From Glaciimonas sp. PAMC28666 (GTDB taxonomy: Bacteria; Pseudomonadota; Gammaproteobacteria; Burkholderiales; Burkholderiaceae_D): a stretch of 64,000 nucleotides of DNA. The translations under genes were made by a program, and so were the position numbers. Below the pieces are notes generated by a model, which was not told where the DNA came from, made no database searches, and was given only the letters and a program-made list of their open reading frames with translations. Below, piece by piece: positions 21,227 to 62,796 of the stretch (positions within the stretch are counted from its first letter, which is position 1; each line of letters starts with the position of its first letter). Location of the stretch: positions 3,844,001-3,908,000 of the forward strand of contig NZ_CP070304.1 of the NCBI RefSeq assembly GCF_016917355.1, given 5' to 3'.

Positions 21227-21268
21227 AGGGCACCAAAATGTTTTAAGTGTTGTCCGCAGCACGGTTAC

Positions 21269-21297
21269 GGCCCACGACCGACCATCGGTCGTGGGCC
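21269..21297 (+). terminator. 13-bp perfect hairpin after SDR gene
   Basis: GGCCCACGACCGA pairs with TCGGTCGTGGGCC around a 3-nt loop, 42 bp after the SDR stop. There is no T-run, so it may stop transcription weakly or stabilise the mRNA end. The remaining sequence to 21550 shows no gene. Confidence 0.6.
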
Positions 21298-21550
21298 GAT
21301 AGCTCATTCCCGAGGGATTTAAAGAGATCGGCTGTTGGATATCGGGCGACGATTCCTAAATAACCTTTTTACGCAATTTGCTTGCGTTATTGGCTGGCTT
21401 AGGTGAATCAGGGCTGGTCGGGGTTGCCTGTAGCGTTTACGTTCGGCCACCTGCAAAATGCGGGGGGTAACAAAAAATGGACGGAAATTGAAATTTCAAT
21501 TGCGCCCATTGCAGCGGCGCACCAGGGCATCAATCAGGTCCTCAATCATG

Positions 21551-29827: not shown

Positions 29828-30880
29828 ATGACTTACCTACAAAATACCTGGTATGCAGCAGCCTGGGACCACGAGGTGACCGGCAAGTTTCTGGCCCGTA
29901 CCCTGCTCGATCAACCTGTGATGTTTTATCGCGATGTATTTGGCAAAGCAGTCGCGTTGGCGGACCGTTGCGCGCATCGATTCGCGCCGCTATCGGGCGG
30001 CAAACTGGTCGATGGCGTGGTCGAATGCCCCTATCACGGTTTACGTTACGGTTCGGACGGCATCTGTGTGCATAACCCGCATGGCAACATCCCCAAAGCA
30101 GCGAAAGTAACTGCGTACCCGCTGCTGGAACGATACGGCATGATCTGGATCTGGATGGGACCTGCTGAAGACGCCGATCCGGCGCTGTTGGCAGACTTTA
30201 GCGCTCTGGCCGATGAGAGGCGCGATTATGTCAGCGGTTATTTGCGTCTGAATTGCCACTACGAACTGGCCACCGACAACTTGCTCGATCTCAGTCACGT
30301 GCAGTATTTGCATCCGTTAATTGGAAATTCCGACTCCAGCGATCGCAATGTTTTTGCACTCAAGGTCGACGGAAATACCATCTGGGCTTACAACACCATG
30401 CCGGGGGAACCGCTGACCAAAATGTGGAAAATGTTATGGGATGGCCCGGCCGACACGCTGGTTGATCGCCGCGGACATATGCGCTGGGATCCTCCGTCGA
30501 ACATGCTACTGGATATTGGCGTGACAGCCTGTGGGCAACCGAAAGATGAAGGTATCTCGATTGCATTCGGACATATCCTCACGCCTGAAAGTGCTCACTC
30601 GACGCATTATTTCTGGATGGCTGGCCGCGATTGCAAGCGCAACGACGCGGCACTGAGCGAAAAACTGCGAATTGGTTTCGATGCGACATTTCGCAACGAA
30701 GATGACCCGATGATCATGGCCTGTCAGTCACGCATGGGCGGGGTCTCCGATTTGATGTCGCTTAAGCCGATACTGCTCGTCACCGACGCCGCAGCGGTAC
30801 GTGCGCGGCGGGTTCTGGCCGGATTGATAGAGAAGGAAAAGGCTGTCGACCCTGTAGTCGGCTTCCCTGGTGCAGGTTGA
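29828..30880 (+). CDS. Rieske aromatic oxygenase, VanA/O-demethylase-like
   Basis: Oxygenase component of 350 residues. The N-terminal Rieske domain has CAHRFAPLSGG ... CPYHGLRYG (C-x-H-x15-17-C-x2-H, residues ~48-70). The catalytic domain has the mononuclear iron site in ATDNLLDLSHVQYLH. Such single-component-type oxygenases demethylate aryl ethers (vanillate) or hydroxylate rings and need a separate reductase. GGAG at 29818 supports the ATG at 29828; no signal peptide. No VanB-like reductase is visible in the window. The right-edge gene at 63703 is about 90% identical over the visible part. Confidence 0.88.
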   Translation: MTYLQNTWYAAAWDHEVTGKFLARTLLDQPVMFYRDVFGKAVALADRCAHRFAPLSGGKLVDGVVECPYHGLRYGSDGICVHNPHGNIPKAAKVTAYPLLERYGMIWIWMGPAEDADPALLADFSALADERRDYVSGYLRLNCHYELATDNLLDLSHVQYLHPLIGNSDSSDRNVFALKVDGNTIWAYNTMPGEPLTKMWKMLWDGPADTLVDRRGHMRWDPPSNMLLDIGVTACGQPKDEGISIAFGHILTPESAHSTHYFWMAGRDCKRNDAALSEKLRIGFDATFRNEDDPMIMACQSRMGGVSDLMSLKPILLVTDAAAVRARRVLAGLIEKEKAVDPVVGFPGAG

Positions 30881-31374
30881 GCAAAAAAGGATATTTATCT
30901 AAAGGCAGAAGAGCAGAGGAGGAGTATTCAATTTCTAATTTGTTGTTCGCGCCTCCGGTCCAGCACGCAGGTAGTTCACCCTTAATAACTACCTGCCTGC
31001 CTTAAAGGTCAGGGCGGTCACCGCTGTAATCCGTCAGATCGCATCGCCGTTTCCTGGTGGCATCAATGCGTCGCTCGCTGTGTGCTCATCTTTTGTGGCG
31101 CCACGGCGCACATCTTATTGCTCTTGTATTCCTCCTGTATTCCTCATCTTCCATGCACCAGCCGCGCGCTATCCGGCTGGTCGCAGCCGATTTATACCAA
31201 CAGTGTACTTTTCTTCTAGATGACTAATTAAGGCCATGCGATACCTGCAGGTGATCAGACCCTGGCTTCGGCAAGAAGTCGCCCGATACCGATACGTTTT
31301 TGCTTTTGTGCAGTAACAAAAAAAGCTTCGTGCTGTACATAGGTGCCCGGTTTATCAACGTTTCGCGGCCTAAC
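30881..31374. other. intergenic leader region before shared promoter
   Basis: About 500 bp without a convincing gene between the Rieske gene and the promoter box at 31375. It is T/C-rich on the plus strand around 31100-31150. No transposon end or RNA gene was recognised. Confidence 0.4.
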
Positions 31375-31440
31375 GATTACCTATAGGTATCGCCTGGGCT
31401 AATTTGTGTTCTTACGACATCGTTGTGGTCTTGGTATATT
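31375..31440 (+). promoter_or_regulatory. shared LysR-type promoter, site A (AceE-like gene)
   Basis: Box GATTACCTATAGGTATC (positions 1-17, T-N11-A geometry), TAATTTG and TTCTTAC near positions 27-41, CTTGG before -10 TATATT at 61-66. The TTAC-based -35 and -10 are 17 bp apart and TGN gives an extended -10. The box centre lies about 64 bp before the predicted start of transcription, where LysR regulators bind. Confidence 0.75.
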
Positions 31441-39759: not shown

Positions 39760-39981
39760 GCGCGTATATCTGATGCCTGACCAATGAAATCGGCCAGGCG
39801 CTGCGAGCGCCACTGCACTCCTTTCATTTAATCCGTCAAATAATGGCGCTATGAAAGGGTTCGGAACGCTCTCAGCCTGCCAGATCTGGCTCCCGTATTG
39901 CTCTTGCCTGGCGCTAACGTGCTATCGGCCATTGGGTGCGCGCGCCGCGCTACGATCCTGAACATCAAAGGCCAGTTACGC

Positions 39982-40047
39982 GATTACTTGTAGGTATCAC
40001 CCCGGCTAATTTGCCATCTTACGACCCTCAACTGCACTTGTTACATT
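39982..40047 (+). promoter_or_regulatory. shared LysR-type promoter, site B (MFS gene)
   Basis: Box GATTACTTGTAGGTATC, then TAATTTGCCATCTTACG at 26-42, CTTGT, and -10 TACATT at 61-66, all in the same register as site A. It would drive the MFS gene at 40320 through an unusually long leader of about 265 nt. The preceding stretch 39760-39981 holds a segment (39866-39945) repeated at 60384-60463. Confidence 0.75.
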
Positions 40048-40319
40048 TAAGTCAAATAACACAAGCTGCCAGACAGCACGGAGACAATCAAATGCTTACC
40101 AAGCCATCCCCCTATCAGCAATCCAACTGTCTGCTTAACTTCGTGACGCGCAAGTAACCAGAGGCATTACGGTCGGCGTTGTACCCGACCGACCTTCCGT
40201 TGGAGCAGTACGCGCATTTTTGTTGCAAAAAATGCGTGCAATCTGTGCCCGCTGCATTCAAATGCCGTCGCTGCGGCAATTCCTTCATCGTCAGTACCAC
40301 CTTTTTAAAGAGAAAACCT

Positions 40320-41663
40320 ATGTTTGCCGAACTGATCGACAACCACTCTGTTAGTGCCAGACAAAAACTGATTTTTGTCATTTGCCTGCTGGTCCTGATT
40401 ATCGATGGAATGGATTTTGCGTTGCTTGCCTTCGCCACCCCGGTACTGCTGGTGGAATGGCACACTACCAAGGCGCAATTGGCACCAGCACTGGCGAGTG
40501 CGCTGATTGGCATGGCGATAGGTGCTGCGTTGGGTGGCTATACCGGCGATCGGATGGGCGCGCGACGCACGCTGATATGGGCCGTTCTGATATTTGGCGT
40601 CACCACCTTTTTATCTGCGGCAGCAGCGAATATTCCACAGCTACTGGTGCTGAGGTTTTTGTCGGGACTTGGGTTCGGTATCGCCGTACCGATAGGCATG
40701 GGGATTGCATCCGAATGGTGTCCGAAGCGCCGCCGCGGTCAGCTGATCAGCGTGATGGCGATCGGTACCACTACCGGTGCGACGCTGGGGGGACTGCTAT
40801 CGGCCTGGGTGATTCCGGCGTTCGGATGGCATAGCATTTTCATCGTCAGCGGTGTCATCACCATGGTGGTTGCCGCGATCATTATCAAGCTTTTGCCGGA
40901 ATCCCTGTCCTTCCTGATCCGCAGTCAGCGTCAAGCTGAAGCCGTCACCTGGATAGAACGGATCATGGGTAAGCAAATCGGTAAGCTGGCGACGTTGGCC
41001 AGCGTGCAAAATGCCAAAGCAAACAAGGAAGAAACCGGAGGGCGTCTGATGACCTCCGAGAATCTGCGCGTCAACGTTTGTTTGTGGATTGCTTTCTTTT
41101 CGATTTCCTACACTGCGTTCGGTTTCCTGACCTGGTCTCCGACCGTGTTCGTTTCTGCTGGCGCACTGCTACCAGATGCTATCCGCAGTACCTCTGCCTA
41201 CACTTTTGCGGCCACCTTCGGTTGTCTGGCTGGTGCTTTTTTTCTTCCAAAAATGGGATCGCGCCTGCTGCTGATGGTCGCCCTTATCGTTACTATCTGC
41301 GCCACGATGATCTTGTCCGGGATGCTGTCTCCCGGGCAAATTCATATATTGCAAATCAGTCTGGCCATGGCGGTTGCCGGCCTGACGGCAGGATGCGCCC
41401 AGTCTGTCATCTATGCCGTGGCCGCCATGGCTTATCCATCCAGCTATCGTTCGACCGGCATGGGAGTGTGTATCGGCTTTAGTCGGGTCGGTGGCATTAC
41501 CAGCATCTTTACCGGCGGTATGTTGCTGCAGTTTGATCAGAATGGTCCGGGTCTTTTTTTCGGCGTTCTTACAGGGATGCTGGTGATCGGCCTGATCGCT
41601 CTGGTCAGCATGCACAGACATATCCCGAAGACAGTCTCTGATGGCGTTGCTGTGCCCGCATAA
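40320..41663 (+). CDS. MFS aromatic acid transporter (AAHS family)
   Basis: Carrier of 447 residues with TM1 IDGMDFALLAFATPVLL, loop GDRMGARRTLIW, RFLSGLGFGIAVPIGMGIASEWCPKRRRGQ, and 12 segments. The ATG at 40320 follows AAAGAGAAAACC. The frame is open back to 40179 and would add a Cys-rich stretch, treated here as not translated. Residues near the C-terminal third (coordinates 41382-41540) reappear, degraded, at 60470-60629. Controlled by shared promoter B. Confidence 0.88.
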   Translation: MFAELIDNHSVSARQKLIFVICLLVLIIDGMDFALLAFATPVLLVEWHTTKAQLAPALASALIGMAIGAALGGYTGDRMGARRTLIWAVLIFGVTTFLSAAAANIPQLLVLRFLSGLGFGIAVPIGMGIASEWCPKRRRGQLISVMAIGTTTGATLGGLLSAWVIPAFGWHSIFIVSGVITMVVAAIIIKLLPESLSFLIRSQRQAEAVTWIERIMGKQIGKLATLASVQNAKANKEETGGRLMTSENLRVNVCLWIAFFSISYTAFGFLTWSPTVFVSAGALLPDAIRSTSAYTFAATFGCLAGAFFLPKMGSRLLLMVALIVTICATMILSGMLSPGQIHILQISLAMAVAGLTAGCAQSVIYAVAAMAYPSSYRSTGMGVCIGFSRVGGITSIFTGGMLLQFDQNGPGLFFGVLTGMLVIGLIALVSMHRHIPKTVSDGVAVPA

Positions 41664-41752
41664 GCGTCGATACCCAAAAGGCGTCGGTACCTAACGCTGG
41701 TGTGTCGCATCACGCACCGCTAAGACGAATAACGGTCAAGAGACCATTGAAT

Positions 41753-41818
41753 GATTACCTGCAGGCATCGCTCGGATGGATTTGCTATCTTACCTGATGC
41801 ATCAGGCCTTGGTACATT
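41753..41818 (+). promoter_or_regulatory. shared LysR-type promoter, site C (FAH and dioxygenase)
   Basis: Box GATTACCTGCAGGCATC, identical over 17 bp to site E, then GATTTGCTATCTTACC, CTTGG and -10 TACATT at 61-66. The start codon of the FAH-family gene lies 81 bp beyond the -10. Confidence 0.78.
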
Positions 41819-41898
41819 CAGGGCAGATCCTGACTGTACCGGACTAAGCATCAAGACTAATTACTCACTTTGTATTGCCTAACACTAAGGAACACACC

Positions 41899-42735
41899 AT
41901 GAAGCTTCTTCGATTTGGAATGCCAGGCGCCGAAAAACCAGGCGCGCTTGATGCGCAAGGGCGACTGCGCGACCTGTCATTGCTAGTACCTGATTTCACG
42001 CCAGATTGGCTAGCCCCGGAACGCCTGCGGGCGCTGGCAGCGATCGACCTGGAAAAGATGCCGCTGGTCGAAGGTTCTCCGCGCTTTGGCGTTCCGGTGG
42101 CAGGCGTGCGTCAGTTCGTCGCGATCGGCTTGAACTATCGCAAGCATGCAGAAGAAGCGGGCATGCCGATTCCGACCGAACCAGTGGTGTTTACCAAAGC
42201 GTTGACCTCGCTGAGCGGTGCCAATGATGACATCGTGCTGCCGGACGGATCGGAAGAGGGCGACTGGGAAGTCGAACTGGGTTTCATGATAGGCACCACC
42301 GCTCGCAAGGTGTCGGTAGAGTCAGCCCTCAGTCATGTGGCCGGTTATTGTCTGGCCAATGATGTTTCCGAGCGCGCCTGGCAAATCAAGCGCAACGGGC
42401 AGTGGGGTAAGGGTAAAAGCTTTGATTCGTTTGGTCCTGTCGGACCGTGGTTAGTCACTGCCGACGAAATTCCTGATCCCCAAACATTGGGTATGGAATT
42501 GAGCGTCAATGGTGTGGTCAAACAGCGCAGCAACACTGCTGATATGATTTTTTCTGTAGCCCAGATCGTTTCTTATCTCAGTCAGTTTATGACCTTATTG
42601 CCCGGCGATGTAGTGATTACAGGCACTCCGTCCGGCGTCGGTCTGGGTATGAAACCGCCGCAGTTCCTGCGGAAGGGCGATGTCGTTTCGTTGCATATCG
42701 ATCAGTTGGGCACTCAGACGCAAAAAGTCGTTTAA
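41899..42735 (+). CDS. fumarylacetoacetate hydrolase-family enzyme
   Basis: FAH-type protein of 278 residues: VAIGLNYRKHAEEAGMP, metal site EEGDWEVELGFMIG, GYCLANDVSERAWQ, GKSFDSFGPVGPWLV and ITGTPSGVGLGMKPP. The start at 41899 follows TAAGGA. It probably opens the ring-fission product made by the dioxygenase encoded 84 bp downstream. Paralogue of the gene at 25282. Confidence 0.88.
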   Translation: MKLLRFGMPGAEKPGALDAQGRLRDLSLLVPDFTPDWLAPERLRALAAIDLEKMPLVEGSPRFGVPVAGVRQFVAIGLNYRKHAEEAGMPIPTEPVVFTKALTSLSGANDDIVLPDGSEEGDWEVELGFMIGTTARKVSVESALSHVAGYCLANDVSERAWQIKRNGQWGKGKSFDSFGPVGPWLVTADEIPDPQTLGMELSVNGVVKQRSNTADMIFSVAQIVSYLSQFMTLLPGDVVITGTPSGVGLGMKPPQFLRKGDVVSLHIDQLGTQTQKVV

Positions 42736-42819
42736 AGCAAAAATAGTTAACACAGTACTGCCGTTCCATAAGGCCAAACCGCTGGAACGGTATTCAGATG
42801 CAGGATACAGGAGAGAGAC

Positions 42820-43773
42820 ATGTCTATCCTCACAGCGCCCGCACGCCGTCCCGACGTGCTGAGCGTACATTCAATAAATGAGTTTGTATACAGCGTGCCT
42901 GACCTGAAGGAGGCTGAGCATTTTTACCGCAGCTTTGGTCTGGATGTCAGAGTTGAGGCAGATTGCCTGGCTTTGTACACGTTCGGCCATCCGCATCGCT
43001 GGGCCCGGATATTTGAGGGCGAGGGCGAGCGTAAGCGGCTGTTGTGGGTAACCTGGGGTATCTATGCTGACGATCAGGAGGCCTTCGATCGGCAACTTGA
43101 TGCGCATCATGTGGTCCGTACCACTGCGCCGCAGCGCGCTGCTGCCGATGGCATCTGGTTTCTAGGTCCGGACGGTTTGCCGCAACAATTGCAGGTATGC
43201 GAGAAAACCTCGCCAGATATCAAATCGCCGCGCATTTTTCCACCTGAAATCAGCATCAGCGGACGTGCGCCGCATCGCAGTGAGGTCACACAAGTACGAC
43301 CCAATCGCCTGTCTCACATCCTGCTGTTCACCGCTGATGTCAACGCCAGTGCGAAGTTTTACATCGAAGTGCTGGGGCTGCGTATGTCGGATCGCTCGGG
43401 TTCCATCATCGCATTTTTGCATAGTCCGCATGGCAGCGACCATCATCTGATTGCCTTTGCAATGTCAGCAGATTATGGTTTACATCACAGTAGTTGGGAT
43501 GTCTCCTCGTTCGACGCTGTCGGGCTGGGAAGCGGGCAAATGACGCAGGCCGGATATCCCGATGGATGGGGCCTCGGGCGGCACGTGCTTGGGTCCAATT
43601 ACTTCCGCTATGTGCGCGATCCATGGGGCAGTTATTGCGAATATTCGTTCGACATCGACCATATCGCCGCCGATCTGGACTGGCCTGCCGACGATTGGTT
43701 GCCGGAGGATGCACTCTATGTGTGGGGCGCTCCACCGCCGGAAGACTTCATCAAAAATTACGAAATTGCATAA
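42820..43773 (+). CDS. two-domain extradiol ring-cleavage dioxygenase (VOC family)
   Basis: Type I extradiol dioxygenase of 317 residues. The Fe(II) ligands are visible in the C-terminal domain: His in LSHILLFTADV, His in GLHHSSWDVSS and Glu in GSYCEYSFDID. The N-terminal VOC domain is SINEFVYSVPDLKEAEHFYRSFG. Ribosome site AGGAGAGAG. Second member of the promoter-C operon, ending before a strong terminator at 43874. Confidence 0.87.
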   Translation: MSILTAPARRPDVLSVHSINEFVYSVPDLKEAEHFYRSFGLDVRVEADCLALYTFGHPHRWARIFEGEGERKRLLWVTWGIYADDQEAFDRQLDAHHVVRTTAPQRAAADGIWFLGPDGLPQQLQVCEKTSPDIKSPRIFPPEISISGRAPHRSEVTQVRPNRLSHILLFTADVNASAKFYIEVLGLRMSDRSGSIIAFLHSPHGSDHHLIAFAMSADYGLHHSSWDVSSFDAVGLGSGQMTQAGYPDGWGLGRHVLGSNYFRYVRDPWGSYCEYSFDIDHIAADLDWPADDWLPEDALYVWGAPPPEDFIKNYEIA

Positions 43774-43873
43774 GTCCAGACGGTTGTATCTGCGATAGGC
43801 TTCTGGTCAACGATCCTTTCGCAGGATAAAAAGCCGGTCGCTGATCATACCGAATATTATCGTTTACGAAATT

Positions 43874-43904
43874 AGCCCAGATTCTTTTGAATCTGGGCTT
43901 TTCT
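43874..43904 (+). terminator. rho-independent terminator
   Basis: AGCCCAGATTC and GAATCTGGGCT form an 11-bp stem with a TTTT loop followed by TTTTCTT. It ends the FAH-dioxygenase operon, and could act on the opposing gene as well. Confidence 0.9.
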
Positions 43905-43945
43905 TCGTGGGGCTAGCGGGAACCAGATGCAAATCAGGAGGTGAA

Positions 43946-44272
43946 TCAGGCGGCGTCGTAATCTCTGAACGCGATGTGATGCACAGTTCCTTCAAACAGC
44001 GGCAAGACGTTTTTAACTACGCCCGCCCGCACCACATCGCGTTGGGCTGACGCTAACGCGACGTCTATATCTTCAGCATTTTCAAAGGTCATCCGGATAC
44101 AGGCAAACACTTCCGGAGCGCTGGGGTCCAGATGGACTGGTACTTCGAGACGGGCAGACAAGACCTTCGGCAAGGTGGCGTAGCCGAGCGTACAGATATG
44201 TAACTGTTCCAGCAGGGCTGCGCTGGCGCCATTGACGGCTTTCCCCACGAAATAAGCGTATCTTGAAAACAT
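43946..44272 (-). CDS. small EthD/ferredoxin-fold-like hypothetical protein
   Basis: Protein of 108 residues. The start at 44272 follows GGAGAAAA; an upstream in-frame extension lacks one. The sequence (MFSRYAYFVGKAVNGAS...PEVFACIRMTFENAEDIDVALAS) has the look of small dimeric alpha-beta barrel proteins of the EthD/Dabb type that accompany aromatic catabolic genes. It lies downstream of, and on the same strand as, the MFS gene at 44390. Function unknown. Confidence 0.65.
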   Translation of the reverse strand: MFSRYAYFVGKAVNGASAALLEQLHICTLGYATLPKVLSARLEVPVHLDPSAPEVFACIRMTFENAEDIDVALASAQRDVVRAGVVKNVLPLFEGTVHHIAFRDYDAA

Positions 44273-44389
44273 TTTTTCTCCTTGGTGAGGCACCGGGGTG
44301 CCATTCTATAGTTTATTTTTTTGTGTAAACGAGCGCCTTTTTTGAAGCGGCAAATGCATTGATGCATTTGCTCGCATGCGCTCAAAGTG

Positions 44390-45736
44390 CTATCTGGCGC
44401 GATTTGGATATAGGCGACCAATCATGAACATGGCGCCACCGGCAATGATCGTGGGTACCGCAAAAATGACAAATGCCACACCAACCGAGTGGATCGAGGC
44501 TAGCAACAGCCCCCCAGTCATGGCACCGAGAATGGAACCGATGCGTCCCACCGCCAGGCACCAGCTTACCCCGGTCGCACGTGCGGCGGTGTTGTAAAAG
44601 TTCGATGAAGTAACGGTAATTCCGGCCTGGGCACCGATCAATCCAAAACCGGCCAGGAAAGTGGTGACGTATACCCACATGACTTCGTGTATCGAAAATC
44701 CGATCAGTGCGATTGAGACGGCTGCGATGATGTAAGACCCGGTGAGTATCAGGAATGGATTGAACCGATCCATCAGAAAAGCATTCAGTACGGCGCCAAA
44801 TACGCCACCCAATGGCACCATCATGGCCATGATCGCAGCACGCGGGACGTCGATGCCGGTCTGCGTAATGACGGTCGGCAACCAGCTGCTTAGCTGGTAG
44901 TACACCCACAGCGTACCAAAAAATGTGAGCCAGAGTAGCAGTGTACCGACCCGGTAGTACGCACTGAACAGAATGCTTGCCGGGGTTTTCCCGGCCTCGC
45001 TTTGATGACTACTGTCGACCGTATTGAACTGGTGTACCAGGCTTTCCAGTCGGACATCATCATTGTTGGACAAACGCAGCATCACTTTTTTTGCTTCGGC
45101 AGCAAAGCGCGGCTTGCCGGTCATGAATTTCAGCGACTCAGGCAACCAGAATAAGGCGACTGGCACCAGGCAAAGCGGAAACAGTCCACCGAAGAGGAAG
45201 ACACCTTTCCAGCCAAAACTCGGAATCAGTTGCGCCGCCACCAGTCCACCAAGTGCCAGCCCAAACGGCATGCCGATCAGCATCAGTGTCACCACCAGCG
45301 ATTTATTCCTTTGCGGGCTGAATTCCGAGGCAAGCGTGACCATCGCAGGCAGAGCACCTCCCAACCCGAGGCCGGTGGCGAAGCGCAGGAAGATCAACCA
45401 AGGGGCCGACGGCGCACTGGCACATGCCAGACTACCGAGCGCAAATAGCACCAGCGATATCAGGATCACGCGTTTGCGGCCGACCCGGTCGGCCAACGGC
45501 CCGAACAGGAAACTGCCGGCGCACAAACCGAACAGGCCAGCGCCAAAAATCGGCCCCAGCTGCGCCGGGCTCAGGTTCCATGCCTTGAGCAGCAATGGGG
45601 CGATATAGCCGACCGAGGCGATATCGAATCCATCTGCAGCGACAATGAAAAAACCCAGGATCAGAGTCAGGATCTGCAGCGGCGACATCGCCTCCCGATC
45701 CGTCAGGCTTAAAGGTAAAAGTGTTCTAGCGTGCAT
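44390..45736 (-). CDS. MFS aromatic acid transporter (AAHS family)
   Basis: Carrier of 448 residues, 12 segments. AAHS features: FFIVAADGFDIASVGYIAP, LADRVGRKRVIL, RFATGLGLGGALPAMVTLASEFSPQRN, and GITVTSSNFYNTAARATGVSWCLAVGRIGSI. The start at 45736 is favoured by GGAG; an extended frame to 45799 has no ribosome site. Close in pattern to the carrier at 36299. Divergent from the aldehyde dehydrogenase operon, with a 419-bp gap holding promoter F. Confidence 0.88.
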   Translation of the reverse strand: MHARTLLPLSLTDREAMSPLQILTLILGFFIVAADGFDIASVGYIAPLLLKAWNLSPAQLGPIFGAGLFGLCAGSFLFGPLADRVGRKRVILISLVLFALGSLACASAPSAPWLIFLRFATGLGLGGALPAMVTLASEFSPQRNKSLVVTLMLIGMPFGLALGGLVAAQLIPSFGWKGVFLFGGLFPLCLVPVALFWLPESLKFMTGKPRFAAEAKKVMLRLSNNDDVRLESLVHQFNTVDSSHQSEAGKTPASILFSAYYRVGTLLLWLTFFGTLWVYYQLSSWLPTVITQTGIDVPRAAIMAMMVPLGGVFGAVLNAFLMDRFNPFLILTGSYIIAAVSIALIGFSIHEVMWVYVTTFLAGFGLIGAQAGITVTSSNFYNTAARATGVSWCLAVGRIGSILGAMTGGLLLASIHSVGVAFVIFAVPTIIAGGAMFMIGRLYPNRAR

Positions 45737-46001
45737 GCAAGGTCTCCGGGGGTATATCGCTTGGTGGCGATTTTTTTTGTGGCGTCGATTTGTCCTCAAT
45801 AATGCGGCAGGGACCGGACCCTTCCAGCACGCCTGAAGGTTGGTTATCGCACCGCATGTTGACGATGCATTAAATGTAGCGAGAGAAGGGGCTTACGGAA
45901 AGATATCAAATTGTCCGTTTCGATGCTGTTTAGGTATCAATGATGCATGCCGAATCCATGTTTTTTCTCTCCTGCTCCGGGGTTGGCGAGGGCCAATACC
46001 G

Positions 46002-46067
46002 TATGCAAAACAAGTATCGGAAACGTCTATTTGTTATCTTCCCGAAACTACGGGGGTATGGTTATAT
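46002..46067 (+). promoter_or_regulatory. shared LysR-type promoter, site F (dehydrogenase/decarboxylase operon)
   Basis: The left arm is degenerate (TATGCAAAACAAGTATC) but keeps T-N11-A. CTATTTGTTATCTTCC at 25-40 and TGG plus TTATAT at 58-66 sit in the same register as the other sites. It lies 88 bp before the aldehyde dehydrogenase start. The remainder of the 45737-46001 gap shows no gene. Confidence 0.62.
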
Positions 46068-46155
46068 TGGATCCGACAAGCAACCCAGCCGCAACCAGCA
46101 ATGCGGCTCATACCGCTAATACCGCTAATAACGCTGGACCAGGAGACCTGAAACA

Positions 46156-47629
46156 ATGAATGCACCCGCATCGCTACCACGCCAATATCGTCAATTGATC
46201 GCAGGAGAATGGGTCGCAGCCGATGATGGCCGCACCTTCGCCGATCTCAATCCTTACAACGGGGAAGTTTTTGCCCATATTCCGGCTTCCAGCGGCACCG
46301 ACGCGCAACGCGCCATTGATGCGGCCGATAAAGCTTTTCCCGCTTGGGCGGCGATGGGCGCACGGCCGCGCCAGGCCCTGTTTTTGAAAGCTGCCGATAT
46401 CCTTGAGCGTCGCGCTGACGAAGTGGTACTCATCATGGCGCAGGAAACTGGTGCCGCCGCGCCGTTTGCGCGGTTTCAGGTCCAATGGGCGACTGGCCTG
46501 CTGCGCCAAGCCGCCGGTTACCCCTATCTATCAGGCGGCGAAATCGTCCCGTCCGATACGCCGGGGGTGTTTGCGATGGCAATTCGCAAACCGCTGGGCA
46601 TCGTGGCCGGCATTTCTCCATGGAATGGCGCGCTGGCGCTAGGGTTCCGGACGATCGTCGCGCCGCTGGCGTGTGGCAACACGGTGGTACTGAAACCGTC
46701 AGAAGATGCGCCGGTGAGCGCCGGACTTCTAATGGGAGAAATCATGACCGAGGCTGGCTTCCCGCCCGGCGTGGTAAATGTGGTGACCCACGCCCATGGG
46801 GAAGTCGGCCCGATTGCTGACCTTTTGTTTGAAAGCCGCAAAGTGCGCGCCTATAACTTCACCGGCTCTTCGACCACCGGCTCGCTACTGGCGGCGCGTG
46901 CTGGCAAGCACCTTAAACGTATTGCGCTGGAACTCGGCGGCTACAATCCGATGATCGTTCTTAAGGATGCCGACCTTGATTACTCGGTTGATACCGCGAT
47001 TTTCGCGGCATTTTTTCATCAGGGTCAGATCTGCATGAATACCCGCAAGATCTTGGTCGAACGCGCGCGTTACGACGATTTCCTTGCACGCTTCGTGGCC
47101 CGGGCAAAAGAATATCCGGGCGGGCGATCCGAGCAATCCGCAAAATAAAATCGGACCACTGATCAATGACGCCGCCGTCGCCAAATTCAAGCTGGCCATC
47201 GAACAGGCAGTAGCCAAGGGGGCCCGCGTGCTGGCTGGTGGCGAAGCGGTGGGCCGCTGCGTTGAACCGACCGTGCTGGTCGATGTGCCTGCGGATGCAC
47301 CAATTTATTGCGAGGAAGTGTTCGGTCCGGTGGTCATCGTCGAACCGTTCGACACCGAGCAGGAAGCGATCGACAAGGCGAACGGCAGCGATTTCGGTCT
47401 GTCGGCATCCATCATGACGGCCGACGTCTGGAAGGGCATTACTCTGGGTGGTCAGGTGCAGGCTGGGATGGTCAACATCAATGGTCCGACGATGGGTGGT
47501 GAGCCGCAGATACCATTCGGTGGTGTCAAGGATAGTGGTTGGGCGCGCTTTGGCAAATGGGCGATCGACATGTTTACCGACCTCAACCTGGTAACCGTGA
47601 GCCAGGAAAAACGCAAGTATCCACTATGA
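46156..47629 (+). pseudogene. NAD(P)-dependent aldehyde dehydrogenase, frameshifted
   Basis: ALDH superfamily gene broken by one extra base. Frame 1 (46156-47148) holds the Rossmann part, SPWNGALALGFRTI, NTVVLKPSEDAPVSAG, the Glu in ELGGYNPMI and the catalytic Cys in FFHQGQICMNTRK, but after ARAK (about 47106, run AAAAG) it diverges and stops at 47148. The next frame continues perfectly as NIRAGDPSNPQNKIGPLIND ... EEVFGPVVIVEPF ... IPFGGVKDSGWARFG to 47629. Joined length would be about 490 residues, normal for ALDH. It may be a true recent mutation or a sequencing error in the A-run. The stop overlaps the next gene start by ATGA. Confidence 0.88.
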
Positions 47630-48816
47630 CGCGCCCCGGTTCTTCTGGGACCTGGCCGGTCCTGTCCGTGCCGCGTACCTTGTGCGCGGCAGGCGCCATC
47701 GCAGCACTGGCCGGCGAATTGGCCGCGCTGGGTGTGCAACGTCCGCTGCTGGTAACTGACAAAGGTGTGCTGGCAGCGGGGCTGGTGGCACAATTGATTG
47801 CAGCCCACGGCGATCCGGCAGCCATAGTGATATTCGACGGCGTGACTGAGAACCCGCTGTTTTCTGACGTCGACAATGGGGTTGCGCTATACATCCGGCA
47901 GGCCTGCGATGGCGTTATCGCGCTGGGTGGAGGGTCGGTGATCGATACCGCTAAATTCATTGCCTTGTTGGCGACGAATTCCGGTAGTGTCGCCGATTAC
48001 GCCGGCAAACCAAATGTCCCGCATGGTGCATCGGCAGCGCTGATCGTTATTCCCACCACTGCCGGTACCGGCAGCGAAGCCTCTCATTCATCAGGCATCC
48101 ATCCCGATGCCAAAACCGCTTCAGTGGGCATGAGTTCACGCCATCTGATTCCTGCGCTGGCGATTCTGGATCCGGTCATGACGGTTGGTTTGCCAGCCCG
48201 GCTGACCGCAGCTACGGGCATCGATGCCTTATCTCATTGTATAGAAGGATATTTGTCGAACAAAGATCAGCCCCTGGGCGCAGCGATTGCTCTGGACGGG
48301 ATCGCCCGCGTCAGTGCAGGGCTACGTCGGGCCTTCGCCAATCCACAGGACTTGGATGCGCGTACGGAAATGATGCTGGCTGCCTTTGCTGGCGGGGTCT
48401 CGATCGGGATGGGCCTGGGGCCAGCCCACGCGATTGCACTGGCCTGCAGCGATCAGGGTTTCCATCACGGTGTGCTAAGCGGCATCGGTCTGGTAGCTTC
48501 TCTGGATGCCACCGCGCTCCATGCACCACAGCGGATGGTTGCCATCAATCAGGCGTTCGGACTGCCTGCATCGGCGTCACTGACCAGCGCGATTGCTGCA
48601 CTGATGCGCGAACTTGGCTTGCCGGCGACGCTGGCCGAACTGGGCTACGCCGCAGCTGACGTGCCGAAGCTGGCCGATTTCGCGCAGCGCAGCCATTTCA
48701 ATTTGTTTGCACCGTTTCATCCGGATGCTGACCAGTATGCTGCGATGTTTCAAAAGTCGCTGGCACCCCCGGTCCTGCACGCAACCATTCAACCCGATAC
48801 CAAGGAATCCACATGA
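47626..48816 (+). CDS. iron-containing alcohol dehydrogenase / maleylacetate reductase-like
   Basis: Group III dehydrogenase of 396 residues. NAD site GVIALGGGSVIDTAKFIALL, metal-site region IDALSHCIEGYLS, and GPAHAIALACSDQGFHHG containing the His ligands. It starts 4 bp inside the ALDH stop and its own stop overlaps the LigW-like gene, so the three are one translational unit. It could reduce an aldehyde or keto intermediate, or oxidise an alcohol made in aromatic breakdown. Confidence 0.87.
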   Translation: MTRPGSSGTWPVLSVPRTLCAAGAIAALAGELAALGVQRPLLVTDKGVLAAGLVAQLIAAHGDPAAIVIFDGVTENPLFSDVDNGVALYIRQACDGVIALGGGSVIDTAKFIALLATNSGSVADYAGKPNVPHGASAALIVIPTTAGTGSEASHSSGIHPDAKTASVGMSSRHLIPALAILDPVMTVGLPARLTAATGIDALSHCIEGYLSNKDQPLGAAIALDGIARVSAGLRRAFANPQDLDARTEMMLAAFAGGVSIGMGLGPAHAIALACSDQGFHHGVLSGIGLVASLDATALHAPQRMVAINQAFGLPASASLTSAIAALMRELGLPATLAELGYAAADVPKLADFAQRSHFNLFAPFHPDADQYAAMFQKSLAPPVLHATIQPDTKEST

Positions 48817-49871
48817 CCAACATCGAAACCGGCACGCGCAGCTCGCTACGACTGATCGCCACCGAGGAAGCTTTTGCCCCGCAAGAATACCTCGATGAAT
48901 ACCTCAAAATGGCCAAAAACATCGACACGCCAGTGGCACGTTATTTGAGGATGTATTATCAAAAGCCGGAATTTGCCCAGCAACTTACCGACATGGATTA
49001 TCGGCTGGCGATGATGGACCGCCATCAAGTCGATATGCATTTGCTGAGCATTACAGGCCCCGGGGTTCAGGCGTTTGACGCCGAACTGGGGGCCGATCTG
49101 GCTATGCTGACCAATGACAAACTCGCCGCCATCATTGCGCAACATCCAACGCGCTTTGCCGGCCTGGCTGCCGTCGCTCCGCAATCGCCACAACGTGCAG
49201 TGCGGGAAATCAAGCGTGCGATGACTGAACTGAAACTCAACGGTCTGATCATCAATTCGCATACCCATGGGGAGTTTCTCGACGATCCGAAATTCTGGCC
49301 GATTCTCGAAGCCGCAGTCACCTACGATGCACCGATCTATCTGCATCCGTCGTTTCCCGCTGATTCGATGATTGAACCGTACAACAAGTACGGCATGATG
49401 GGCGCACTCTGGGGCTTCCAGGCAGAATGTTCATTGCACGTAATACGGATGATCCTGAGCGGGGTGTTCGACCAGTTTCCGACGTTGCGCATCGTGCTCG
49501 GCCATCTGGGCGAAGGCATTCCATATTGGCTGTCGCGCCTTGACAACCGCTATCAGAACATCCTCAGGCGCGGCGGCCTGCCGTCGCTCGGCATGAAGCA
49601 GTTGGAGCGTTTGCCAAGCGAATACTTCATGAGCAATTTCTACGTCACCACGGCCGGCATGAATGCCAGCGCCCCGTTTGATTACTGCGTCAAGCTGCTG
49701 GGCCCGGAGCGGGTGCTGTTTGCAATCGATTATCCGTATGAACAAACCGAAGATGCTACCGGTTTCGTGCGCGGACTCGACCTTGCGCCTGATGATCTGA
49801 ACAAGATCTGCCATAGCAATGCCGAACGTCTGTTCAAAATTCAACCTGGGCTGGCGATGCCAACGAAATAG
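48813..49871 (+). CDS. amidohydrolase-family decarboxylase, LigW-like
   Basis: Metal-dependent ACMSD-family protein of 352 residues, closely patterned on LigW, the 5-carboxyvanillate decarboxylase of lignin-biphenyl catabolism. Candidate ligands: Glu19 (TEEAF, the LigW form of the usual EEH), His178 (IYLHPSFP), His231 (VLGHLGEG) and Asp306 (AIDYPYEQ). INSHTHGEFLDDP and VTTAGMNASAPF also match. It would remove an aromatic carboxyl group without oxygen. Other acids (resorcylate, isophthalate type) remain possible. Last gene of the promoter-F operon. Confidence 0.82.
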   Translation: MTNIETGTRSSLRLIATEEAFAPQEYLDEYLKMAKNIDTPVARYLRMYYQKPEFAQQLTDMDYRLAMMDRHQVDMHLLSITGPGVQAFDAELGADLAMLTNDKLAAIIAQHPTRFAGLAAVAPQSPQRAVREIKRAMTELKLNGLIINSHTHGEFLDDPKFWPILEAAVTYDAPIYLHPSFPADSMIEPYNKYGMMGALWGFQAECSLHVIRMILSGVFDQFPTLRIVLGHLGEGIPYWLSRLDNRYQNILRRGGLPSLGMKQLERLPSEYFMSNFYVTTAGMNASAPFDYCVKLLGPERVLFAIDYPYEQTEDATGFVRGLDLAPDDLNKICHSNAERLFKIQPGLAMPTK

Positions 49872-49975
49872 GTTAAAAGGCGGTCGGTCGCGGCGCTGCG
49901 CGGTCCCTTCAAGACGGCAAGCCGCGATTAAAAAAGATGGTATGATTCCGGCATTGATGCCTGAATGATATCGCC

Positions 49976-50902
49976 ATGAAACTGAGCCAGTTCCGCAATT
50001 TTCTTGCTATTGCCGACAAGGGCAGCGTGCGTTCCGGTGCCCGCTTTCTGGGACTAACGCAGCCTGCACTGACGCGTAGCATGCAGGAACTGGAGCACGA
50101 ACTGAACGTGTCGCTGTTCGTGCGCGGTACCCGTGGCGTGGCCCTCACTGAAATGGGGCAGCGTTTCGAGGTGCGTGCGCGTACCGTGCAAAATGAAGTC
50201 CGGCGTGCCGAAGAAGAAATGGCCCAGCTGCAGGGCAACAATGAAGGCAATCTGCACGTGTGCCTCTCTACCGTGGCGCATATTTCGTTGTTTCCATATG
50301 CGCTTAAGGAATTTCGAGCACGCTATCCGAATGTAGTGATGGATGTGCTGGACGGCGTCTATCCGAGCATAGAAGGTTTTCTCAAATCCGGGGCGCTTGA
50401 CTGCTACGTCGGTCCGGCACCCAGCCAGCCGGGACCCGAGATGATCGTCGAAAAACTGTTCGACAATACGCGGGTAATATTGTGTCGGCGGGGCCATCCA
50501 CTGCTCAAGGCGCGCTCGCTGCAGGAACTGGCCGATGCCGAATGGGCTACTACCTCGATTACTTTTCGTGCTGAAGAAGAACTGGGCCCGCTGTTCGCCC
50601 AATACGGTCTGCCAACCCCGCGCCTGGTGCTGCGGGCTTATTCTGCACTGACCTACATCAGTGCCATCTCCTCTTCAGACTTGCTGACCATGCTGCCGGT
50701 GCAATGGGCGCATTTCGAAGCGACCCGCAATGTACTTGATATCATCAATGTGGTCGAACCGTTACCGGCACCGCCTATCTGTATTGTGCGCCGCGCTGAC
50801 TTGCCGCTGACCCCGGCGGCGCAATATTTCTGCGACATGATACGACGCGCTAGCAGCCACCTTGAGCAGGCTCGCGACGCGGCCGCACTTAAACGCACTT
50901 AA
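49976..50902 (+). CDS. LysR-family regulator
   Basis: Regulator of 308 residues: helix-turn-helix FLAIADKGSVRSGARFLGLTQPALTRSMQELEHELNV, effector domain from about 95 (GNLHVCLSTVAHISLFPYALKEF). Related along its length to the LysR at 21551, whose promoter G shares spacing with sites A-F; this makes it the best guess for the shared regulon, but that is inference. Its last ~40 codons (50779 onward) lie in a repeat copied at 60637. No clear ribosome site precedes the ATG. Confidence 0.9.
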   Translation: MKLSQFRNFLAIADKGSVRSGARFLGLTQPALTRSMQELEHELNVSLFVRGTRGVALTEMGQRFEVRARTVQNEVRRAEEEMAQLQGNNEGNLHVCLSTVAHISLFPYALKEFRARYPNVVMDVLDGVYPSIEGFLKSGALDCYVGPAPSQPGPEMIVEKLFDNTRVILCRRGHPLLKARSLQELADAEWATTSITFRAEEELGPLFAQYGLPTPRLVLRAYSALTYISAISSSDLLTMLPVQWAHFEATRNVLDIINVVEPLPAPPICIVRRADLPLTPAAQYFCDMIRRASSHLEQARDAAALKRT

Positions 50903-51119
50903 GCGCCCTTAATCTAATTTAGCGCATTTAGCCGCATTCACCCGCAACCCGCTTTGTCATTACCGGCGTGGGCCACGGCATGGGAGTTTATCAGGCTGAT
51001 TCCGGAGCGCAACAACACCTCTCAAATTCGCGATCACCATCCATTTGGCCTTGCGCTTGCCAACATAGCGCGCAGTGTTTGCTTCAGCCAACCTGAGATC
51101 GGCTCCGAAAATTTCCTCC
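50779..51119 (+). repeat. left copy of a ~340-bp direct repeat
   Basis: Covers the end of the LysR gene and ~215 bp beyond. A close copy occurs at 60637-60984 in the same orientation, with scattered substitutions, a 9-bp insertion and a 2-bp deletion. The repeats flank the 9.5-kb module from 51120 to 60636. The reverse strand of the distal part has a short Trp/Lys-rich frame that is only intact in the right copy. Confidence 0.88.
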
Positions 51120-51140
51120 CATTACGCCTTCGATGTATGT

Positions 51141-51180
51141 GTTGCCCATGTCCCGGCACGAGTGTTACCCATGTCTCCGG
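51141..51180. repeat. paired 16-17 bp motif resembling a transposon end
   Basis: GTTGCCCATGTCCCGG (51141) and GTTACCCATGTCTCCGG (51164) recur 23 bp apart, just after the repeat copy ends at 51119. Repeated GTTnCCCATGTC motifs are known from ends of IS21/IS481-type elements. No transposase gene is present. The rest of 50903-51605 shows no gene. Confidence 0.5.
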
Positions 51181-51605
51181 TCTATACAAGTCCCGCAGCA
51201 AAACTACAAACAAAACACCGCTAATACAAGCGCAATGGCTGCAAATTCAATCACTTTTGGATTTTGGGTTGTTGGTAGTTTTACTTCGATTGACGGCTGC
51301 TGCAAAGTCGCGTACAGGTCCTGAGTGACGATGTGCGGAAAATATTCTGTCGATGGTTTCTCGGAATGAAAGCGGAGGAGCGAGTGCTGCTAAAGGCGGC
51401 GGCATAGTAGCCCAACCCCGGATTGTTCCACTCTCCCTCAAAGGCGCGCTTTTCTTGCGATCAAAGGGGAGCAATTCAAGATTATATTAAAATGGGGTGT
51501 CAAAAAATTTGGAATCGTTCAAGTTTCTATTCCGACGAAACAGGCATGTCGCAGCTATGCTGGCTGACAGCGCCGACCAAAACTTTAACGTAAGGATACA
51601 AATTA

Positions 51606-60014: not shown

Positions 60015-60383
60015 CTCACCGACCGTTGAAAATCAGGGGCATTGGTCGTAGCTAAACATGGAATACCTACCAGCCAACTCATCGAGTCGTGGGATGTGTA
60101 CGCTTCAATCATTCTGTCTCCGTCATGTTTGTATGTAGCAGAGTACCTATTACGGTTTTTCTGCTTTTTTGACATCTTAAAAGTGTCGACACTTTCATAT
60201 TATCTTAAAATTTCTAAATGTCAATGGCTATATGAAACATATGATACATAGGGTGAATAGATAAAAAGAGTAAAAAAATAAGTGGCGTTTGACGAAATGA
60301 AAACGAAATGAGTCGTCAACCGAGTGTTAAAAATGTGGCGGGTAATTGCTTATAATCATGTTGAGTAAGCAAAAGGCGTGATC

Positions 60384-60984
60384 GTTCTCAGCATGCAAAT
60401 ATGACTTCCGTATTGTCCTCGCTTGGGACTACCGTGCTATCGGTCATTGGGGGTGTACGCGCCGAACGGACGGCAGGATGCGCGCAGTCCGTCATCTATG
60501 CTGTGGCCGCCATGGCTTATTCATCCAGCTTTCGTTCGACCGCCATGGAGTGTTTAGGGGAATGGGCTTTAGTCGGGGCGATGGCATTAACAGCATCTTA
60601 CCGGCGGTATGCTGTTGCAGTTCGATCAGTGATCGGCTGTATTGTGCGCCGCGCTGACTTGCCACTGACCCCGGCGGCGCAATATTTCTGCGACATGATA
60701 CGGCGCGCCAGCAGCCAACCTAAGCAGGCTCGCGACGCCGCCGCACTTAAACGCACTAAAGCGCACTTAATCTAATTTAGCGCATTTAGCGAATTTAGCC
60801 GCATTTACCCGCGACCCGCTTTGTCATTAACGGCGTGGATCACGACATGCGAGTTTATCAGGCCGATTCCGGAGCGCAACAACACCTCTCAAATTCGCGA
60901 TCACCATCCATTTGGCCTTGCGCTTGCCAAGATAGCGCAGTGTTTGCTTCAGCCAACCTGAGATCGGCTCCGAAAATTTCCTCC
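60384..60984 (+). pseudogene. mosaic relic of MFS promoter, MFS gene and LysR gene
   Basis: Three consecutive segments copy parts of the 39.9-51.1 kb block in order: 60384-60463 matches 39866-39945, 60470-60629 matches 41382-41540 inside the MFS gene at 40320, and 60637-60984 matches 50779-51119 (LysR end and downstream). An open frame at 60401-60775 therefore encodes a chimera (AGCAQSVIYAVAAMAYSSS, then CIVRRADLPLTPAAQYFCDMIRRASS). It lacks a ribosome site and a meaningful domain, so I call it a relic of a duplication with two internal deletions. Confidence 0.85.
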
Positions 60985-61027: not shown

Positions 61028-61093
61028 GATTACCTCCCGGCATCGCTCACGCTTATTTACTATCTTACACGGCGAATGCGCCCTTGCTATATT
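61028..61093 (+). promoter_or_regulatory. shared LysR-type promoter, site D (FAD monooxygenase)
   Basis: Box GATTACCTCCCGGCATC, TTATTTACTATCTTACAC, CTTGC and -10 TATATT at 61-66. The GTG start of the monooxygenase lies 54 bp after the -10. Confidence 0.78.
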
Positions 61094-61146
61094 CGGACCA
61101 AATTTGCACAACAAAACAAACTGCAAAGCAACCCGGAGACCACCAA

Positions 61147-62796
61147 GTGACTATTGCATCGTTATCCCGTATCAAGACTCAGGTTCTTATCATAGGCGCG
61201 GGTCCTGTCGGACAAAGTCTGGCAATCGAAATGGGCCAGCGCGGAATTAACTGCCTGGTAATAGACCGCAATGAACGCGTTGGCATGGCCCCCCGCGCCA
61301 AGACAACCAATGTGCGTACCCGCGAACATATGCGGCGCTGGGGTATTGCGCACAAGCTGGCCGAGGCATCGCCGTTCGGGGTTGACTATCCGTCTAACGT
61401 CGTATTCGCTACCCGCCTCTCGGGTCAGATGTTAGCCAAATTTGATAATGCCATGTATTGCGCGCCCGGCCGTAATCCGCTGTATTCAGAGCATGCCCAA
61501 TGGATACCGCAATATGTCGTTGAACAAGTCATGCGCAACCATCTGGAAACCATCCCCAGTGCAACCTTGCGCTTGCAATGCCAGATGGTCGGCTTTGAAC
61601 AGTTCGACGATCACGTAGTCGTCACGGTAGAAAATCTGGCTACCGGCGAGCAACAGGAAATCGATGCCGAATATCTGGTGGGCTGTGATGGTGGGCGCAG
61701 TCTGGTGCGGGAAGGCATCGGCGCGACCCTGGAAGGGACCTATGGCTTATCGCGCAATTACAATTTCGTGTTCCGTGCGCCGGGGATGGAAAAGGCCCAT
61801 GGTCTCGGAAAAGCCATCATGTACTGGCAAATCAATGCCGATATGCCGAGCCTCATCGGACCGATGGACAAAGACGACCTTTGGTATTTTATGCCGACCG
61901 CATTGCCACCCGACGTTAAGATTACCAAAGAAAATGCAGCGGATTACATACGTCTCTCCACCGGCATCGATTTACCCTACGAAATTCTGAGCGCCGACGA
62001 ATGGGTCGCCAGTAAGTTCATTGCCACCCATTACCGTGACCGTCGTGTTTTCCTGGCCGGCGACGCTGCCCACCTGCACCCACCATTCGGTGGCTTCGGT
62101 ATGAATATGGGTATCAGCGATGCCGTCGATCTGGGTTGGAAACTGGCTGCGGTATTGCAAGGGTGGGGCGGACCGGCCTTGCTGGATAGCTATGAGCGCG
62201 AACGTCGTCCGGTACACCGACATGTGATGAATGAAGCAACTGCCAATCATGCCCTGCTCGGTAATGGCTTGCTGCAGGAGGGAATCGAAGCTGATACGTC
62301 CGAAGGAGCCGCTATTCGTGAACAAGTAGGGCAGCGCATTCGGGCCGGAAAGCTGTCGGAATTTTATACCTTGGGTACGCTTCTTGGCGATCGCTATTCG
62401 GATTCTCCGGTGATTGCCTGCACGCCGCATCCGCAAGCGCCACGCGATTTCCTCAATTATGTACCGAGCGCCGAGCCGGGCTGCCGGGCACCGCATGCCT
62501 GGTTGCATGACGGCAGCTCTCTATTCGATCATTTCGGCGCCGGTTTTACGCTGCTGGTGTCCGGTAACCCCGAAGAGGCCGCCCCTGCCGCAGCCGTGGC
62601 CGATGCTGCACAACGTGGTATTCCGCTCAAGGTAATCCATCCACAGATGGGTGCGATACACGGTCTGTATCCGAAGCGATTCACGTTGATCCGTCCGGAT
62701 CAACACGTCGCCTGGTCAGGCAGCGAGTGGCCCGCAGCGAATGATGTGTTCGACCTGGTCTGCGGCAATCCGCCTGCCCGGGCCGCGCGCGACTGA
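61147..62796 (+). CDS. FAD-dependent aromatic monooxygenase (MhpA-like)
   Basis: Class A flavoprotein hydroxylase of 549 residues. FAD motifs: VLIIGAGPVGQSLAIEMGQRG near the N-terminus, DG motif LVGCDGGRSLVREGIG, and GD motif VFLAGDAAHLHPPFGGFGMNMGISDAVDLGWKLAAVLQGWGGPALLDSYERERRPVH. GTG start at 61147 with GGAG upstream. The C-terminal ~130 residues are thioredoxin-like, as in MhpA. Paralogue of the protein at 22636, but in a different unit under shared promoter D. It probably feeds the VOC dioxygenase at 63006. Confidence 0.88.
   Translation: MTIASLSRIKTQVLIIGAGPVGQSLAIEMGQRGINCLVIDRNERVGMAPRAKTTNVRTREHMRRWGIAHKLAEASPFGVDYPSNVVFATRLSGQMLAKFDNAMYCAPGRNPLYSEHAQWIPQYVVEQVMRNHLETIPSATLRLQCQMVGFEQFDDHVVVTVENLATGEQQEIDAEYLVGCDGGRSLVREGIGATLEGTYGLSRNYNFVFRAPGMEKAHGLGKAIMYWQINADMPSLIGPMDKDDLWYFMPTALPPDVKITKENAADYIRLSTGIDLPYEILSADEWVASKFIATHYRDRRVFLAGDAAHLHPPFGGFGMNMGISDAVDLGWKLAAVLQGWGGPALLDSYERERRPVHRHVMNEATANHALLGNGLLQEGIEADTSEGAAIREQVGQRIRAGKLSEFYTLGTLLGDRYSDSPVIACTPHPQAPRDFLNYVPSAEPGCRAPHAWLHDGSSLFDHFGAGFTLLVSGNPEEAAPAAAVADAAQRGIPLKVIHPQMGAIHGLYPKRFTLIRPDQHVAWSGSEWPAANDVFDLVCGNPPARAARD

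Follow-up and report, generated by a model that had tools for sequence, protein, structure and literature searches.

A 600-bp relic, probably of a second MFS-to-LysR copy, ahead of a FAD monooxygenase gene in Glaciimonas sp. PAMC28666

The window, a stretch of 64,000 nucleotides from Glaciimonas sp. PAMC28666 (contig NZ_CP070304.1, positions 3,844,001–3,908,000; window numbering is used throughout), contains ahead of a FAD monooxygenase gene a segment of ~600 bp (60380–60984, plus strand) made up of pieces that each resemble a different part of an upstream block, which raises the question of how this mosaic arose and whether it still does anything. As aligned by self-blastn of the window, piece 1 (60380–60464) matches the DNA upstream of an MFS gene (39864–39947; E 7e-9; 76.7% gapped and 79.5% ungapped identity), while piece 2 (60461–60629) matches the interior of that gene (41376–41540; E 1.7e-48; 85.4% gapped and 86.9% ungapped identity). 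The MFS gene itself is intact (40320–41663) and of the aromatic acid/H+ symport type, with a match to TIGR00895 (E 1.9e-83) that lies below the curated cutoff. Piece 3 starts at ~60635, corresponding to 50777, and is aligned over 60637–60984 against 50779–51119 (E 2e-142; 91.7% gapped identity), being overall ~94% identical to 50777–51119. It comprises the C-terminal coding tail of a LysR-type regulator (piece 3a, 60635–60760; counterpart 50777–50902; 92.7% ungapped) and the DNA downstream of it (piece 3b, 60761–60984; counterpart 50903–51119; 95.0% ungapped), where the regulator gene, hereafter LysR49, is intact at 49976–50902 and the homology stops at 51119. All pieces and counterparts lie on the plus strand. 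As the original prediction had described, they follow one another in the same order, and the first two segments, like the third, align better than expected by chance. No further copies of the pieces were found by a search of the whole 5.23-Mb single-contig genome beyond the relic and its source.

The 7 bp that separate pieces 2 and 3, together with adjacent bases, form the 9-base stretch GTGATCGGC (60629–60637, plus strand), which is an exact match to positions 41583–41591 of the MFS gene and stands in the collinear place and order, so that it is probably a fourth collinear scrap. The original prediction explained the mosaic by a duplication followed by two large deletions; a collinear copy with internal deletions agrees with the alignments, while three deletions fit better than two, since GTGATCGGC stands between pieces 2 and 3. 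Measured against the present source block, these deletions would amount to ~1.43 kb (39948–41375), 42 bp (41541–41582) and ~9.2 kb (41592–50776). Short matches occur at the joints of the relic, with GCCG at the first and CTG at the last (microhomologies of 3–4 bp).

The coding pieces of the relic are disabled by frameshifts and by the loss of start and stop. As aligned with 41376–41540, the MFS piece has frameshifting indels and a premature stop and is without a start, and in the LysR tail the stop codon is destroyed (TAA to AAA), while downstream piece 3b differs from the source by a 9-bp insertion and a 2-bp deletion. An open frame of 124 amino acids runs through 60401–60775, in which the MFS scrap is joined in frame to the LysR tail and the tail is kept in its native frame.

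The direction of change in the LysR tail was assigned at seven substituted sites by comparison with Duganella, Massilia and other homologues as outgroups, the two junction bases and the stop being excluded. At three of the seven the change lies in the source lineage, is synonymous in every case, and the relic has the base of most outgroups; at the other four the relic lineage has changed, three of these changes altering the amino acid. This pattern agrees with selection acting on the source but not on the relic, as far as the small numbers of seven sites can be read. The relic was originally predicted to have been copied from the upstream block, which these sites contradict: as it retains ancestral bases no longer present in the source, relic and source descend from a common ancestor, instead of the relic being derived from the present block.

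The identity to the source climbs from left to right along the relic, from 78% to 99%, reaching 99.1% over the final 117 bases compared. The two noncoding portions differ significantly from each other (79.5% in piece 1 versus 95.0% in piece 3b; Fisher P = 7e-5), and the change-point in the joined relic/source alignment was exceeded in none of 500 permutations. The even divergence across pieces expected of one duplication with uniform decay is thus not seen, and a single duplication followed by uniform neutral decay does not fit; only this simplest form (one event, uniform decay) is rejected, not a decayed duplication as a kind. The same gradient bears on template-switching repair, in which a broken end would have picked up three or four short stretches of the adjacent block during a single event. 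The shortness of the pieces and of the microhomologies at the joints would suit such an event, but order and strand are kept in all pieces, and identities as unequal as these are not expected from one recent round of copying, which makes this origin improbable.

The almost invariant right end, and the native reading frame of the LysR tail, could also be taken as signs of a working element, in that the frame 60401–60775 might be a gene, or the 99%-identical part might act as a regulatory site or a conserved RNA. Against this, the folding of the last 119 bp of the relic is not unusual (z −1.44, −0.51 and −1.02), no Rfam match reaches the gathering threshold in the window, the reverse-frame peptide has no Pfam match, the downstream DNA has no relative in the genomes searched, and the changes of the relic lineage in the LysR tail are mostly amino-acid altering. 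A working element is therefore very improbable, and the still more specific idea that the 124-residue frame is expressed as a chimeric small protein modulating the LysR regulator of this region is barely credible. As the right end folds in no unusual way, we favour exchange of sequence between the direct repeats at a later time as the likely source of its near-identity.

The left edge of the relic is abutted by the end of an insertion sequence of the ISKra4 family (60324–60366, plus strand; the terminus that precedes the transposase gene), a newly found feature absent from the original prediction. This stretch is 89% identical over 44 bp to the ends of elements repeated in genomes of the same genus, and its local alignment scores 65.6 against a maximum of 43.1 in 500 shuffles. 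In one of these genomes the element is intact, with a length of ~1.5 kb and inverted ends, and it encodes a transposase of the ISKra4 family (NCBIfam NF033572, E 2.2e-85, above the cutoff). Neither a transposase gene nor a second inverted end is present at 60324–60366, where only ~43 bp are left, and the feature is thus a remnant rather than an element. No other copies of this end were detected in the organism's own genome, and a pattern search of viral contigs for it returned only chance-level 14-mers. An identification of this scar as IS21 was dropped, as the intact element is an ISKra4. At the source, the region directly right of the homology edge at 51119 (51120–51190) contains weak IS481-like terminal debris, with short plasmid matches (E 0.2 to 8), one of them located 9 bp past a transposase annotated as IS481. 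Insertion-sequence debris accordingly flanks the stretch between the repeats at either edge, with a firm identification on the right (ISKra4) and a tentative one on the left (IS481-like). Further into this stretch, the noncoding DNA at 51296–51437 is 78% identical to Caballeronia plasmid DNA situated ~2 kb from an istB gene and is probably mobile-element debris. The reverse-frame ORF over 51001–51119 was rejected as a transposase remnant, as it has no Pfam match and only archaeal plasmid matches at E 5–6.

An intact second block was found neither in 60 relatives searched at the DNA level, nor among 392 genomes of the family searched by LysR and by MFS, nor in GTDB contigs by MFS or LysR, the genus being represented by only five genomes; the scan of the GTDB contigs with the MFS protein yielded no relative. 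LysR49 is 70% and 69% identical to regulators of Duganella and Massilia, respectively, and the gene order near its orthologues differs among Burkholderiales relatives. The originally predicted block of ~11 kb is in consequence an upper figure only, as the relic's ancestor may have been shorter where gene order is so variable. In one gammaproteobacterial MAG the LysR orthologue is immediately preceded by an MFS gene, but this MFS is only 31% identical, so that the MAG does not decide for a compact MFS-LysR ancestor.

These comparisons bear on the possibility that the relic is left from a related MFS-LysR block obtained separately from a different bacterium, along with the FAD monooxygenase block. 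The variable gene order, the plasmid location of the catabolic genes in Massilia putida, the absence of the MFS and LysR genes from the same-genus genomes searched, the low identity of piece 1 and the ancestral bases that the relic still holds would all agree with such an acquisition. It would require an added recombination, as the block in the window itself matches the noncoding right end at 99% identity, and in the LysR tail no other genome searched comes closer than ~82% over more than 60 bp. We consider a xenologous origin, the main rival reading, possible but rather unlikely.

The collinear same-strand pieces, their uniqueness in the genome, the pseudogene marks, the ISKra4 end, the polarised sites and the identity gradient together argue for a decayed second copy, and we regard it as reasonably probable that the 600-bp stretch is the non-functional relic of a second MFS-to-LysR copy that arose by duplication and was reduced by deletions. 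Weighing against this reading are the lack of an intact second block in any genome searched, the small number of polarised sites and the shortness of the microhomologies at the joints; an acquired homologous block or template-switching repair could have left the same scraps. The second copy would have been produced by a duplication inside this catabolic region and would have spanned the DNA upstream of the MFS gene, the MFS gene itself, and the sequence up to the 3' end of the LysR gene with the DNA behind it. An ISKra4-type element may then have inserted on its left side, after which illegitimate deletions at the short matches GCCG and CTG could have taken out the interior and most of the insertion sequence, and the right end may later have been homogenised with the intact copy by direct-repeat recombination. 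The relic would at present have no role beyond lying upstream of the monooxygenase promoter and offering a direct repeat at which recombination could occur.

The neighbouring FAD monooxygenase gene (61084–62796, plus strand), an aromatic-degradation gene, belongs to the PRK06126 subfamily (NF004780, E 6e-173, above the cutoff) and has a probable start at ~61147. Its promoter contains the operator-like dyad GATTACCTCCCGGCATC (61028–61044, plus strand), situated just right of the relic. The original prediction held that this promoter, termed promoter D, had been left nearby by the duplication and its deletions; the dyad lies outside the homology and was thus not left behind by the relic, belonging instead to the neighbouring monooxygenase block. 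The 17-bp dyad GATTACcTnnnGGyATC occurs in the window at 31375, 39982, 41753, 61028 and 62884 on the plus strand and at 31240 on the minus strand, five of these matches being exact and all six having at most one mismatch, versus 0.26 expected for the six, and only one more exact site exists elsewhere in the genome. At the four aligned promoters (31375, 39982, 41753 and 61028) it is followed by a promoter-like pattern, TCTTAC...CTTGnTAnATT. The dyad is probably a shared putative operator through which one LysR-type regulator would control several catabolic operons. The genes between the repeats encode a GntR regulator, an amidohydrolase, a porin, a flavin reductase, an HsaA-like monooxygenase and an MFS transporter, the HsaA-type monooxygenase being part of a minus-strand operon; the gene at 48813–49868 is also identified as an amidohydrolase by Pfam. 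Two VanA-type Rieske oxygenase genes (29843–30847, and from 63718 past the end of the window to 64725 in window numbering) share 77% DNA identity over 1 kb, indicating paralogous catabolic modules in one region. Near-perfect palindromes of ~31 bp are present at 943–974 and 21268–21298.

The clusters of Massilia putida and Duganella share with this region an orthologous LysR (70–73%), a FAD monooxygenase (58–60%), a VOC dioxygenase and FAH. In Massilia putida and two Duganella the LysR gene adjoins the FAD monooxygenase gene divergently, followed by the FAH and VOC dioxygenase genes, whereas here the intact LysR gene lies ~11 kb from the monooxygenase gene, which is adjoined only by a LysR tail in tandem orientation. 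A comparable history is documented for the tfd clusters for 2,4-D degradation on plasmid pJP4, which are rearranged and contain a duplicated LysR-type regulator gene, with ISJP4 inserted in the 3' end of tfdT and truncating the regulator, and with IS remnants at the module edges (PMC11507517). Both systems have two related catabolic modules, a LysR duplication and IS remnants at the edges (PMC11507517), while the genes and the IS families differ. Furthermore, pJP4 is a plasmid on which larger copies remain intact, whereas here 600 bp of a second copy are left in a 5.23-Mb single-contig genome.

The direct repeats of ~340 bp (50777–51119 and 60635–60984) bracket a segment of 9.5 kb and lie 9.9 kb apart. 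They predict RecA-dependent loss of the 9.9-kb segment, after which LysR49 would sit immediately ahead of the FAD monooxygenase promoter. The relic documents the remodelling of a catabolic region in the form of two copies, edge scars left by insertion sequences, deletions and a likely later exchange; beyond this record of rearrangement it represents genome decay of an ordinary sort, a genome fossil.
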